Origin: Halichondria panicea
Taxonomy: Eukaryota > Porifera > Demospongiae > Suberitida > Halichondriidae
Assembly: GCF_963675165.1 (NCBI RefSeq)
Contig: NC_087389.1
Location: 3,408,830 to 3,472,829 of the forward strand
Length of the DNA: 64,000 bases
Direction of reading: 5' to 3'
The stretch's first letter is position 1, and the number at the start of each line of letters is the position of its first letter. The position numbers and the translations under genes are program-made. The notes beneath the pieces are model-generated. The model ran no database searches. It had not been told where the DNA came from and saw only the letters and a list, made by a program, of their open reading frames with translations. Of the stretch, positions 37,901 through 49,900 are shown one piece after another.

Positions 37901-40900
37901 GCAAGACTACTTCTAGCCTTAGTTTTTAGTGTTCTGGGTGGGAGTGGTCAACACCAGACAGTTGCTCTAACGCTGACCTAATATCAGGCCGCTCATGGTC
38001 TCAAGGCTAGCACAGGAGCACCCTCTGTTTCTCTATTAGCTAAGGTCAAGTGGTTTTAACCGCATCTATATTCACGGCCGTCTTAACATATTCGAGGCTA
38101 AGCTGCCACCAAGTAAACACATATCGTATGAGAGTAAAACCGCAAAAAAGTTGTACTTGCAGGACATTAAAACACTTGCGAGTAATTTCAAACGCTACGA
38201 AGAATATTAATACCAGACCAGTGAAATAGCAGAAAATCTACCTGTGGAAATGTGTCAATTCATGTGATTGCTTTTTGTGTATGCATTCTGTGCTCAAGCG
38301 TACACGTAGTACCTTGTGGAAGCATTCTTGTAATAATACCTGGGCACAAGAGAAACTGCTCTTTGCAGTCCATGAATCTAACTACTACCCAATGCCAAGT
38401 TCTGTGAATAGTATCAATGACCTTGTAAGGGTACCAAGAATGCACAGTCATGTAAACCAAACAACCAGCAATGCCATATATAGAAGTTTATAAACAAAAG
38501 CAGCTTACATGTGTATACAAGAGTTACAATTAGCCAACCATGGAAATGTATGAAGCAGTCATTTTGGCCTTAGTTCTTGGTGCAGTGGTTTTATTAGTTT
38601 GTGTTGTCTGTAATTGTAAGAACTCAACCCCATGCCAGCCTCAAGATAGGAGACAAGATGAAAGACAAACTCCACTGCAGCCCCAGCCTCTGATCAAACT
38701 CAACTTGAAAGACTTTATCCAGCAAAATGTGTTCTTCCCAATACAACTTCAGTCCCGGGAAAGTTCATTTGAAGATTCAACAGATGGAAGTGACCCAGTG
38801 TTTGATGGGTTCATACAGCAAGTGATATCTAAAACCGAGAACCAGAGAAAGAAGTGTCAATTTGCTTGTCTAATGCTACGAGGAGCAAGTGAAACACAAA
38901 ATCAGCGATTCACATACAAACCACATTACAGTGGTAATAGTCCCTATGTGAACGACAGTGAGGCATTCTCACCTCCAGTGGAGCGATTAAACAACTACAT
39001 CGTAGCAAGGCCCAGTAGCCAGACACATGGACAAAAACATGCAGAAGTTGTCATTCTTGATAATTTCAACACACTATGGGAAGCTTACATAAGGAAGAAC
39101 CGCAATCAAAAACCTGCAAGTATTGTTCTCTTTTCCTGGATCATTCCTTGTGTAACTTGTACCCCAAAGCTTATTAAATCCCTGTCGAAACTAGGGGTGC
39201 CTGTTCATATTGCATACACGATAACATACTACCGTGAAACTGAGCAACAGATGCAAAACAGTGTTAAAAATATTGAAAAGAGTGGGATGGTAATCGAGCG
39301 AGTGGACTATCCAGAGCGATTGCCATCCAGGCATTAACAAGACTGGCTTCACAATGCTATGCATGCACTATACGATAGTTGACACAGTAAAAACAATAAT
39401 TACTACTAGAAATTGCATGATAGCGTTATTTCTTTATACATACATGTCATTGTACACATCATCATGTACGTACTAATAATTATTATGATGCATATATCTT
39501 ATAGGTTACAGGTACATATATGGAATGCTGTAGTGAATAATAATATTAAGCAATCATTTGCTGTACATGTACATGTAATGGAATTGCATGATTACCCGTC
39601 GCCTACCTTGTATTTTTAATGAAGTATACATGACTATGAGAGGCGTGCTCTAATAAAATAGTACTCGACGATTCTGTTCATCGACATTTCAGCAATCACA
39701 CTACAGTGCACAGCCTATAGAGAGTAAAGTACCACAATAGGGGGAGTAGTTGTACTTAAATGTATCTCAAGATTGGAACATTTCTAAGAAATTGTGCTGA
39801 TACCATTTTATAGGTGAATGAATAAGCTACAACATTATTCGAAAATATTTCCCCAAAAGTTGTTGTAGTGGAAAATCATTTTAGGTGAAAATGGTGGTGA
39901 TCGTAAAGAAATGTGTGTAACGTACATCAAATATCTCCGTATAAAGTATTTCTGGACAAATTTTTTGTATCAAAAGATAGAAAATTTCAAAAACAATTAG
40001 ACCTTAGCCGATAAATTTGCTAAAAACTCGATAATTGAATCAGTTTGTGTACATATGTAAACTTTACGAAACCATGCATATGTTAGATAAACTATTCAGG
40101 AATTTGTGCCACAGTTCCCTTACCTTAGCCGACAACGATTGGTGTTTTCCATCGCTATTAAGCGATTGTCCACTATATGCTCTTAAATATAAACCACCAC
40201 ATACCCACCACCTTTGGGAATTATTTTGTGTATATGTTTTAGAGTATTCTTTTATCTACACAATGGTATCAGCAAAATTTCTTAGAAATGTTCCTTTCAC
40301 AAGATTGTACCAATAGCAGCAAATTTGCGATGTTTTACTATCTAGGCTGCAAGCACTGTACACAGAGGCTCCCTCCATACATTTGATCAATTCCATACAT
40401 TGATTGCACTCCTGATTGCAGTAATCGACTAAAAAGATCGATTGGGTAATCACTTCCACGATTGCTTCAAAGGCAATCACAATCTAACTATAACACTATA
40501 ATTATGCAAGACACTTCCTGTATATTGAGAATGCAATTGGGATATTCCAGGAAGTTGAAGACATGTACATAGTACAAATTCATAACAAGGAAACTACAGA
40601 CCACAAACAAAGATTCAGATACACAAGTAACAGCTACAAATATACTGCAATAATGTTCCTCATGATAGCAGCTACACTCCTAGTACTAGTAATATCACTG
40701 ATCATCATCTATCGCCTAGTTAAAGAGTTTCAAGACTATGAGAGTGAGGTCAGAGTTCCCGATGACATTGTGAAGATAGTTGGTGAGCACCTTTACTCTC
40801 AACAGCAGTCGATGTGTGTCCTGGAGGGAAACCAAATTCCAGCATTCACTGTGAAATCTATCATACCCAAAGCTGAGGGCCAAAGAACTAGCTGGCAATT

Positions 40901-46900: not shown

Positions 46901-49900
46901 ATGCGCATTATAACAATGACCTTTGGCCTTCAATCTTTGCATGCTAGGACACTATGACCGAGCAAGTAGCTAAATGGCGGGTCAAATAGGCTAATTGCTC
47001 GGAAATTGACCGATGACCGACTGTTATTTATACCTCTGGACTGGTTGGTTGTATTAATAATTATGTCATTTGGAATGAGTTTAAAATGGGAACCAATAAT
47101 ATCCCCTTGATATAATGGGTAAGTCCCCAAGCTAAAAAGGGGAAATCTTACCATATGCACACTGTACAGAATTTATATGGGACAAAAAATTCCCCCAATG
47201 GGATGAATGTTGTACACATTAATGCTGACATGGTGCAGAACTTTCCCTATAAATGATTATTTCGCAATGCATAAACCAGGGCTATATAAATGACCACAAA
47301 ACCACATCAAAAACAAATATCATAAAGCTGAAAAATGGACAGTTATATAAGTTCATGGAGTGCTCCTACCACAGTGAGAGAAGTATCACAAGAGACTATA
47401 GTTAGATATGTCAATGAACAAGTCATCCCGCTATTTGAGAAGCAGAGAGAAAAATCACAATTTGCAGCAATCATACTGTGTTCAAGGGACGACTGTGACA
47501 GTGAACTACAGCGTATTAAGTATTCACCATCGGATTCATTCAGACACCCACTAACAGATAGTACACAACCAATGATGCCCAACGAGTACAGTGACTTTGA
47601 TAACTATATCACTGCTAAACCATACGAAGGACACCATGCTGAGCACATACTACTTTTACAAATAGACAATTTATATGCTGCTTTCAAGTCTAAACACGGC
47701 AAACCTTACTACATAATCCTCTACACATGGATAACACCCTGTAGTAACTGTGCAAAGCTGATCATCGAAAAACTCAGCCAACAGCCGTATTCAGACATAC
47801 CCAGAGTGGTGGCTCATACCACTAACACACATAAGAAGGGAGATGATGTGCAAACAGCTAAACACAGACTGAGGGAGGCTGGGATCACAGTACTGGAGGT
47901 ACCACATCAAAAACTACATGAACCAACAAGAAGACTTCTCTTTATGTAAAAATAACCACAGAATTTTTACTGAATCTCAAAGCATCAACATTACTTTTAG
48001 AACAGTCACGCAATAACGTCAATCACTCAATATTTTTTGTCATCAATTATTATTACCGCTGAATTCATGATCATTGTAATGCTCTCTCATACATTTCTTA
48101 ATTATAACACAAGTGATGGATAACTGTCAGTGATCTACACAATTTGATTAGAATAACTCCTGCCTACGCTGATAGTGGATTGATACATCACTATTGTATT
48201 AGTTCAATTGGTGTACTGGCTAAGCAAACTTTTTGTGCAGCAATGGACATGGATGGCTGGTAAAGATATGACAATCACTTCTTTTTTTCCATTTAACTTT
48301 AAACCAGACTTAATAAACCATTTACAAATTGATTTCAACAGAAGACACAAGGGGAGACTGAAGAAGACTGGGGATCATGGTATTGTATTGGAAGTACTAC
48401 ATTACGTGAGGAGGCTACCGATACAAGAATAATTTTAAAGCATGATTGAGAAGGGGAAACTTTACCAACAACAACCTTAACTTTAGCATAGTTCATTTAC
48501 TTAATCACCTCAGTTGCATGGGTATGGCATAACTGTGAACAAAGTTTCCTCCAAACACAAGAGAGTCCTCTGGAGTCAAGACAGCATGGATCCAGCCTGG
48601 GTGGTGACATTTATAGTATATATTCATGTAGCGTTCTACTAGACACATTCATATAATTATGGAATATATAATTATGGTACTGTACATGTAATGTACAACG
48701 TAGACTGAAACAAAACATTTTGGCAGTACGTGTAGTAGGATTTTAAATTCATAACTACATGCATGTAGTCAGTATTAAGTACTATTGTATGGCACATGAA
48801 AATGTACAGACTACTGGGCCAGCAGGAACGCCTCGTTGGAATGGAAACTAGGTTCAGGGTTCAGACTGTACATGCACATCCTACAATGCACAGTGACACG
48901 TACTGCAGAGGCACACGGCAACAAACTCACCACTAGGTATGAAGAGAGTGTTTCCCTGTCTGACTCTGCAGCAGTAACATTTTGCGACCAGATCGCCAAA
49001 GAACACCTCGCTTTGACTGGATGATAGTACCCACTGCTCGTAGTGCGTCAGATTCTCCTCAGTAGGAGGTATCAAGTAGAACACTTTCTCACCCTGAATT
49101 GGTTGGAGCAGTAATAAATAAATAATATTATACAGCAATGAAAAATAAAATTGTACAAGCAACAGTTTGTTGAAATTAATGGGCACCAGCAAGCACTACG
49201 GTACGCAATGTTCATACTATTATAAACATGCAGTGCCATAATTAATTATTACATCAGAAAGGAAAGAGGAAATTAAATTGTGGCTTTGGTACAGAGGTAC
49301 GTGTAAACTAAATGTTTAAAGCACAACGTACACGTGATGTACGCATAAATATCAAAAGGTATGTGTTGATAATTATGGTAGTGCATGCTACTCGCAGAAC
49401 ACAACCATTACGTTTGTACATGTACTTCCCTCACCCAAAGGACATGGTACCAGACAGATGTGCCTCCGAAATCAACATGAAAGTCAGTGTAGCTATCCTT
49501 GACGCTCATGAGACAGTACTTCTGCACTGAGGGTCGAGAGAGGGGTGAGTCCTCAGGGAGGTCCTCAGGCCAGTGACAGTTGATCCAGTCAATCTTCCGC
49601 ACAGTCAGAGGGGGGGACACCATCTTAGATAGTCTGGAGGGAAAGGAGACTAGTAGTACTGTGCAGCAACTGCCTCTTTGAGACGCGCCAAAACATGGAA
49701 AACATGTACATGTAGTCACAATTGAGAATCAGAGCAGAGGGTCAATCTCCTAAACTGATATCACTAAAATAATGGCTTATACATATACATGTACATGTAC
49801 ATGGAAATTGAGGACACACATACATGAAATTTCACGTACTGTACATGTACATTGTACATGTATAACGACACACCCATGGCCAACTGGCATTTCCATACCC

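Follow-up and report, generated by a model that had tools for sequence, protein, structure and literature searches.

Vertebrate immunity depends centrally on AID and the APOBECs. Here we describe a cluster of five genes for AID/APOBEC-like deaminases (AADs) in the sponge Halichondria panicea, located in the window, that is, the whole stretch of 64,000 nucleotides that was analysed (contig NC_087389.1, positions 3,408,830 to 3,472,829 of the forward strand), whose own numbering is used below. AADs of invertebrates, including the sponge family SNAD4, are already in print (PMC8201067, PMC11004436, PMC5956068) and existing Pfam models match these genes, so that the "undescribed system" proposed in an earlier note on this DNA was too strong a term. 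In the relevant passages of these papers, SNAD4 is stated only from sponges (PMC11004436, PMC8201067) and NAD1 is described from vertebrates (PMC8201067), while SNAD proteins are recognized by a C-terminal cluster of three cysteines, and six of 38 fish SNAD1 proteins carry a membrane-anchored N-terminus (PMC11004436). As reported in the corresponding sections of PMC5956068, AID/APOBEC proteins share the zinc motif H[AVS]E-x(24-36)-PCxxC, and DNA deamination in E. coli is reported for some AID-like proteins of sea urchins and brachiopods, a group whose members are enriched or induced in tissues exposed to microbes.

The five genes of the sponge cluster are the following:

38540-39337, plus strand: gene 1, AID/APOBEC-like deaminase of 265 amino acids (aa), with hydrophobic residues 6-24
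40563-41414, plus strand: gene 2, AID/APOBEC-like deaminase of 283 aa from the first ATG, or of 250 aa if translation begins at 40662, with an N-terminal hydrophobic helix
41949-42698, plus strand: gene 3, AID/APOBEC-like, 249 aa, with a hydrophobic N-terminus and DAE at residue 151
44654-45220, plus strand: gene 4, AID/APOBEC-like, 188 aa, without a membrane helix, with PPSY near the N-terminus
47335-47949, plus strand: gene 5, AID/APOBEC-like, 204 aa, without a membrane helix

All five are intact single-exon frames that run from ATG to stop (188-283 aa, spanning 38540-47949); in gene 2, the ATG at 40662 is the start used in the database copy P0008. Frames of at least 180 aa number five in this region and one in total across 200 first-order Markov copies of it, which shows that the five are not due to chance and bears out the earlier note's count of five plus-strand single-exon genes. 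The cluster is nested in a gene of the KDM7/PHF8 type, the relevant parts of which are:

48509-48597, minus strand: KDM7-type exon part before the intron, reading ends ..PMQLR; the 5' border is approximate
37829-48508, minus strand: KDM7/PHF8-type intron of 10,680 bases with GT-AG borders, containing all five genes
37700-37828, minus strand: next KDM7-type exon stretch, reading resumes ..IYETEF.. in the Jumonji helical domain; the 3' border is approximate

The exon that ends in ..PMQLR (48509) splices to the one that begins ..RIYETEF.. (37828) through a GT donor and an AG acceptor, and the reading is continuous. The joined exon parts comprise a JmjC and a Jumonji helical domain and match human KDM7/JHDM1D (3kv9; E 3e-87), the alignment crossing the junction; with the GT-AG borders, this places the five genes in one KDM7/PHF8-type intron and in the opposite direction, as had been proposed.

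Judged by sequence profiles and predicted structures, the five genes are AADs in the broad sense. Each matches several AAD families of Pfam, every Pfam family that matches any of them at E <= 1e-3 is an AAD family, and for four of the five (genes 1, 2, 4 and 5) one or more of these families score above their curated cut-off. The leading families are SNAD4 (2.8e-07) and NAD1 (5.8e-07) for gene 1, NAD1 (2.7e-07) and APOBEC_N (6.9e-07) for gene 2, NAD1 for gene 3 (6.4e-05, below the cut-off) and for gene 4 (8.7e-07), and SNAD4 (2.3e-07), level with APOBEC2 (2.4e-07), for gene 5; the SNAD4 family (PF18750), with a Pfam gathering score of 27 bits, admits genes 1, 2 and 5 and not genes 3 and 4. A profile of 15 proteins (the five window genes and the database relatives P0001-P0007 and P0009-P0011), which also served for modelling, was compared with the PDB: of 29 matches, the top 14 (E 3e-7 to 1.6e-3) consist entirely of APOBEC3 and APOBEC2 proteins, led by APOBEC3G (E 3e-7), and the first non-APOBEC match is ADAT2 (0.008). 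The SWSPC of APOBEC3G is present in these alignments, and the aligned part covers the helix 4/strand 5 stretch "rlreaGitv".

The deaminase fold is present in the predicted models of genes 2 and 5. In that of gene 5 (predicted local distance difference test score (pLDDT) 86.3, predicted template modelling score (pTM) 0.83), strands at residues 44-49, 91-94, 126-133, 157-163 and 185-188 and helices at 102-108/110-121, 137-147 and 170-181 are arranged as in the deaminase fold; helix 4 lies between strands 4 and 5, and the zinc motifs sit at helices 2 and 3:

47635-47643, plus strand: gene 5 HAE, residues 101-103, predicted zinc ligand and catalytic Glu at the start of helix 2
47737-47751, plus strand: gene 5 PCSNC, residues 135-139, two predicted zinc ligands at the start of helix 3

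Foldseek places APOBECs in the 11 best of 98 matches to this model (E <= 0.001), with APOBEC3G in the lead (2.4e-6) and APOBEC3G/3C in the top rows. The gene 2 model (pLDDT 75.5, pTM 0.70), which opens with a helix at residues 2-29, adopts the same fold, again with the zinc ligands at the start of helices 2 and 3. The deaminase reading and the kinship with AID/APOBEC suggested in the earlier note are thus supported, and neither of the outcomes that it had named as refuting, a model lacking the deaminase sheet or a match to an unrelated family, occurred.

The motifs that had been described as common to all five genes recur in most of them as the same deaminase signature, but not in every one. 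The zinc motif H[AVS]E-x(24-36)-PCxxC is present in genes 1, 2, 4 and 5 and broken in gene 3, where DAE replaces H-[AS]-E and NHMVAKL replaces NYI-A-[RK]-P; gene 3 may be a pseudoenzyme, because its Asp stands in place of the zinc-binding His. The second half of the motif reads SWxxPCxxC in genes 1-3, TWxxPCxxC in gene 5 and SHxxPCxxC in gene 4, and none of the five genes has the SWxPCxxC of the classical AID/APOBEC group (vertebrate AID and APOBEC1-3). Gene 4 also has QYA instead of QFA and is shortened after strand 4, between strands 4 and 5, with no continuation visible in the other reading frames. H-[AS]-E and P-C-x2-C are retained in genes 1, 2, 4 and 5 and in 12 of 12 relatives examined, and the gap from Glu to Pro-Cys is 31-33 residues in 17 of 17 proteins (counted from DAE in gene 3), inside the x(24-36) range of the published motif (PMC5956068). 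In APOBECs, loop 7 is the loop that deals with the target base; the residues following strand 4, which we assign to it, are aromatic in genes 1-3 and P0011 and non-aromatic in the gene 5 group, P0009 and P0010. Because this aromaticity varies, cluster members may favour different sequence contexts. In the N-terminal tail of gene 4, the PPSY lies at 44678-44689, a PPxY motif that we take to be a possible docking site for a WW domain or a budding factor.

The N-termini divide the cluster into genes 1-3 and genes 4-5. Over 19 residues, Kyte-Doolittle hydropathy at the N-terminus is 3.31 in gene 1, 3.08 in gene 2 and 1.92 in gene 3, and the best value in the first 63 residues is 0.17 in gene 4 and 0.31 in gene 5; genes 1-3 are accordingly predicted to open with a membrane helix. 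A hydrophobic start is also found in five of the 12 database relatives (the gene 2 group members P0009, P0010 and P0011, the gene 1 copy P0014, and P0007), and its occurrence in P0007, which belongs to the gene 5 group, means that its distribution does not match the tree neatly.

Single-protein queries of the 131-Mb assembly, in which only the best candidates were scored, return the cluster itself: it accounts for five of five matches for gene 5, five of five for gene 1, and all seven for gene 2 except two weak ones (E 0.2 and 1.0) on a further contig, C15. With the SNAD4 profile, 31 places are found in the assembly, comprising four of the five window genes (three over the cut-off), 22 places on C15 and five weak ones elsewhere; among 14 control genomes the profile scores below the cut-off in eight and above it in none. 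The C15 array extends from 4,724,560 to 4,861,812, with all 22 places on the minus strand, 19 over the SNAD4 cut-off and four with internal stops; a motif search of the same array gives 21 frames. Its long proteins (about 420-540 aa) have a first domain with HAE..SPCxxC, and the five that were aligned carry a second deaminase-like domain without HxE, in which PCxxC is kept in three. The copies at 4803076 and 4815803 are both 505 aa, have the same reading and lie 12.7 kb apart. SNAD4 scores are 21-31 bits for the window genes, against 29-48 bits in eight C15 rows scanned. The APOBEC2 profile (PF18772) marks 27 places in the assembly, including the C15 array and genes 1, 2 and 5, whereas the SNAD1 profile (PF18744) marks gene 1 only. 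At a separate locus, C3:6771332-6775156, frames 182-188 aa long match the SNAD4 and APOBEC2 profiles weakly (E 0.05-0.24).

A maximum-likelihood tree was built from 37 rows, namely the five window genes, 12 of 15 database proteins and 20 C15 frames; left out were P0008 and P0012, the database entries for genes 2 and 3 of the window itself, the chimera P0015 (discussed below) and one of the 21 motif-found C15 frames. P0013 and P0014, found later with the 15-protein profile, are included in the tree and were not part of the profile and model alignment. The window clade (five genes and 12 relatives) is split from the C15 clade (20 rows) with support of 100/100 and in 100% of 200 bootstrap trees, in an unrooted tree of these sequences without vertebrate references, reference AIDs or published SNAD4s. 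By sequence, the window cluster is therefore a set of AADs distinct from the C15 array.

The two sets also differ in age. Core identity among the five paralogues is 24-54%, with genes 2 and 3 the closest pair, and counterparts are kept in other records: P0014 for gene 1 (end branches of 0 and 0.01 in the tree), P0009 for gene 2 (85% identical), and P0001 (98%) and P0002 (85%) for gene 5. The cluster therefore looks like an old, retained set and not a fresh expansion. There are no direct repeats of at least 40 bases in 37800-48900 (seed 14), and hence no sign of recent duplication. The sequence does not bear out the "expanding" set of the earlier note for this cluster; on sequence, the recently duplicating AADs of the genome are those of the C15 array. 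That relatives share the synteny of the cluster is only suggested: P0002 and P0009 come from the same source, the longest contig of which is 12,034 bases, and are taken, unproven, as lying on one contig.

We judge it reasonably likely that the five genes make up an old tandem family of polynucleotide cytidine deaminases of the AID/APOBEC-like kind, single-exon and housed in a KDM7-type intron, whose most likely use is the restriction of viruses or retroelements. Genes 1, 2, 4 and 5 would bind zinc through His/Cys/Cys, and their Glu would drive C-to-U conversion in single-stranded RNA or DNA. A membrane anchor, probably in the endoplasmic reticulum or the plasma membrane, would hold the products of genes 1 and 2 with the catalytic domain in the cytosol, although this orientation is uncertain; genes 4 and 5 would be soluble and act in the cytosol or nucleus. 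Gene 3, which would also be membrane-tethered and has lost a zinc ligand, could, if made, be a non-catalytic partner or decoy. Foreign nucleic acid, viral or from retroelements, would be mutated and so restricted. This C-to-U/restriction reading is the likeliest because the nearest tested relatives in print, AID-like proteins of sea urchins and brachiopods, deaminate DNA in some cases and are enriched or induced in tissues facing microbes; the immune role itself is an inference. Charges flanking the gene 1 helix (-1 before, +2 after) favour a cytosolic catalytic domain. Several observations speak against this reading: the flank charges in genes 2 and 3 do not favour such an orientation, in a structural alignment dCMP deaminase, RibD and TadA rank level with the APOBECs, and some sea-urchin homologues are without activity according to the relevant section of PMC5956068.

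The hydrophobic N-terminus of genes 1-3 could instead be a cleaved signal peptide, making the cluster one of secreted SNAD-type deaminases acting extracellularly or in a lumen, as proposed for SNADs. Gene 1 passes the cut-offs of both SNAD4 and SNAD1, and genes 2 and 5 that of SNAD4, a family known, as noted above, from sponges only (PMC11004436). Yet a hydrophobic N-terminus is lacking in genes 4 and 5 and in seven of 12 database relatives, the tree separates the window genes from the higher-scoring C15 set, and the flank charges of gene 1 match an uncleaved anchor. Under the criteria given in the pertinent part of PMC11004436, the window genes are not SNADs by sequence, because they have no C-terminal cysteine cluster (each of the 17 proteins has 0 or 1 Cys beyond PCxxC) and because genes 4 and 5 have no signal-like start, genes 1-3 having only a hydrophobic stretch. 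The higher-scoring C15 frames are likewise without an obvious signal-like start at the first Met (by eye, in those 15 of the 20 frames that have a Met ahead of the motif, upstream exons not being sought; the frame at 4809835 is Met-rich), so that a missing signal is weak evidence against SNAD4 kinship, and a signal peptide may not be a valid criterion for sponge SNAD4. On balance, secretion seems unlikely.

About equally unlikely is a loss of catalysis, as in APOBEC2 or APOBEC4, with a role in RNA/DNA binding or as a scaffold, or the decay of some copies; the DAE of gene 3, the shortening of gene 4 between strands 4 and 5, the SWxxPC/TWxxPC/SHxxPC forms in place of SWxPC and the inactive sea-urchin homologues would fit it, but all five frames are open and the zinc and catalytic motifs are retained in genes 1, 2, 4 and 5 and all 12 relatives. 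Less probable still is that the enzymes act on free nucleotides (dCMP, cytidine) or on tRNA adenosine and not on polynucleotide cytosine. The tie in the structural aligner would agree with this, as would PF00383 (dCMP_cyt_deam_1), which weakly matches genes 2, 4 and 5 below its cut-off; sequence profiles, however, prefer the AID/APOBEC families by several orders of magnitude, and to our knowledge housekeeping nucleotide deaminases do not form diverged tandem clusters. A bacterial-toxin-type deaminase of a symbiont was rejected, because the genes are nested in an animal gene that is spliced and belongs to a 6.6-Mb contig, and because one scan each of genome contigs and viral contigs with the 15-sequence profile gave no relative (8 and 7 pattern matches, respectively, none confirmed); the OTT_1508_deam profile, which matches neither the assembly nor the 14 control genomes, is uninformative here.

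Returning to restriction by polynucleotide deamination, a bolder form of it is conceivable, if rather speculative: the cluster may represent a separate, non-SNAD clade of AID/APOBEC-like mutators of early animals, whose soluble and membrane-tethered enzymes arose together in one intronic cluster, in parallel to the much larger, tandem-duplicating SNAD4 array. Such an arrangement could provide a two-armed, mutation-based innate immunity, with one arm at membranes, independent of AID-style adaptive mutation and with gene 3 as a regulatory or decoy member. One sponge genome holds two AID/APOBEC-like sets, a large one with recent duplicates and a small, old one with counterparts in related records and, in part, with starts resembling membrane anchors, and these offer concrete genes for asking whether mutating foreign nucleic acid already served early animals as an innate defence. 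A membrane-anchored deaminase, if true, would be an unusual cell-biological arrangement for the AID/APOBEC family.

Two possible promoter elements, recognized by consensus match only, accompany the cluster:

38489-38494, plus strand: TATAAA, 51 bases before the ATG of gene 1, possible TATA box
47285-47290, plus strand: TATAAA, 50 bases before the ATG of gene 5, possible TATA box

By chance a TATAAA would occur with a probability of 0.036 per 20 bases of the intron; no such match lies about 50 bases before the ATG of genes 2-4. Rfam gives no match in 37000-50000. Beside the KDM7-type gene lies an uninterrupted frame of 1360 codons, cadherin-repeat-like by eye (52609-56691, plus strand). The database protein P0015 joins the N-terminal half of gene 3 (window 41949-42380) to the PPPY-bearing C-terminal tail of a large, unrelated gene family on C6 (C6:4699300-4699800). 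That it is a fusion or splice form of gene 3 was rejected, as the join falls at a shared GCAGA with no canonical acceptor (by eye), and from its sequence we read it as a template-switch or assembly chimera; if a cDNA artefact, it still hints at plus-strand transcription of gene 3. P0015 has 139 matches in the assembly, most of them to the tail part, and the PPPY-tail proteins form a large family with many single frames of about 1,500 codons on C6, C11, C14, C4, C3 and others.

NCBIfam gives nothing relevant for the genes of the cluster, and the Inv-AAD profile (PF18785) has no match in the 131-Mb assembly; P0011, although labelled Inv-AAD in the database, shows no Inv-AAD at E <= 0.01 in our Pfam scan. 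Of the relatives scanned with Pfam, five of seven pass an AAD cut-off (P0003 and P0007 fail). Among open-licence papers, in titles and abstract starts, no literature on this cluster was seen; the resemblance of PMC13402138 to a SNAD4 source comes solely from carp genes with names like snad_409.

Compared with SNAD4, the window genes belong to the same AAD superfamily, with genes 1, 2 and 5 above the Pfam cut-off and a higher-scoring array in the same genome, but they form a separate clade from that array, the tree giving no grouping of the two; they score lower, have no C-terminal cysteine cluster and, in genes 4 and 5, no secretion signal. They also have one domain, unlike the five long C15 proteins with their second, HxE-less domain. 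NAD1 (PF18778), APOBEC2 and APOBEC_N (PF08210) give scores equal to those of SNAD4 and share the zinc motif and the fold, whereas the window genes are of the SWxxPC type, not SWxPC, and genes 1-3 have a hydrophobic start. As in fish SNAD1, a predicted N-terminal membrane anchor precedes the AAD domain in genes 1-3; the C-terminal three-cysteine cluster that the relevant passage reports in almost all fish SNAD1 proteins is absent from the window genes. The AID-like proteins SpAIDL and LaAIDL of sea urchin and brachiopod, compared by description, are also invertebrate, multi-copy (nine urchin loci) and equipped with the same zinc motif, at 193-194 aa for both named proteins; the passages of PMC5956068 that describe them mention neither a membrane helix nor nesting in an intron. 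By sequence, no named AAD clade fits the window genes best: the kind of enzyme is already known in animals, and the new part is a branch that belongs clearly to none of the named groups.

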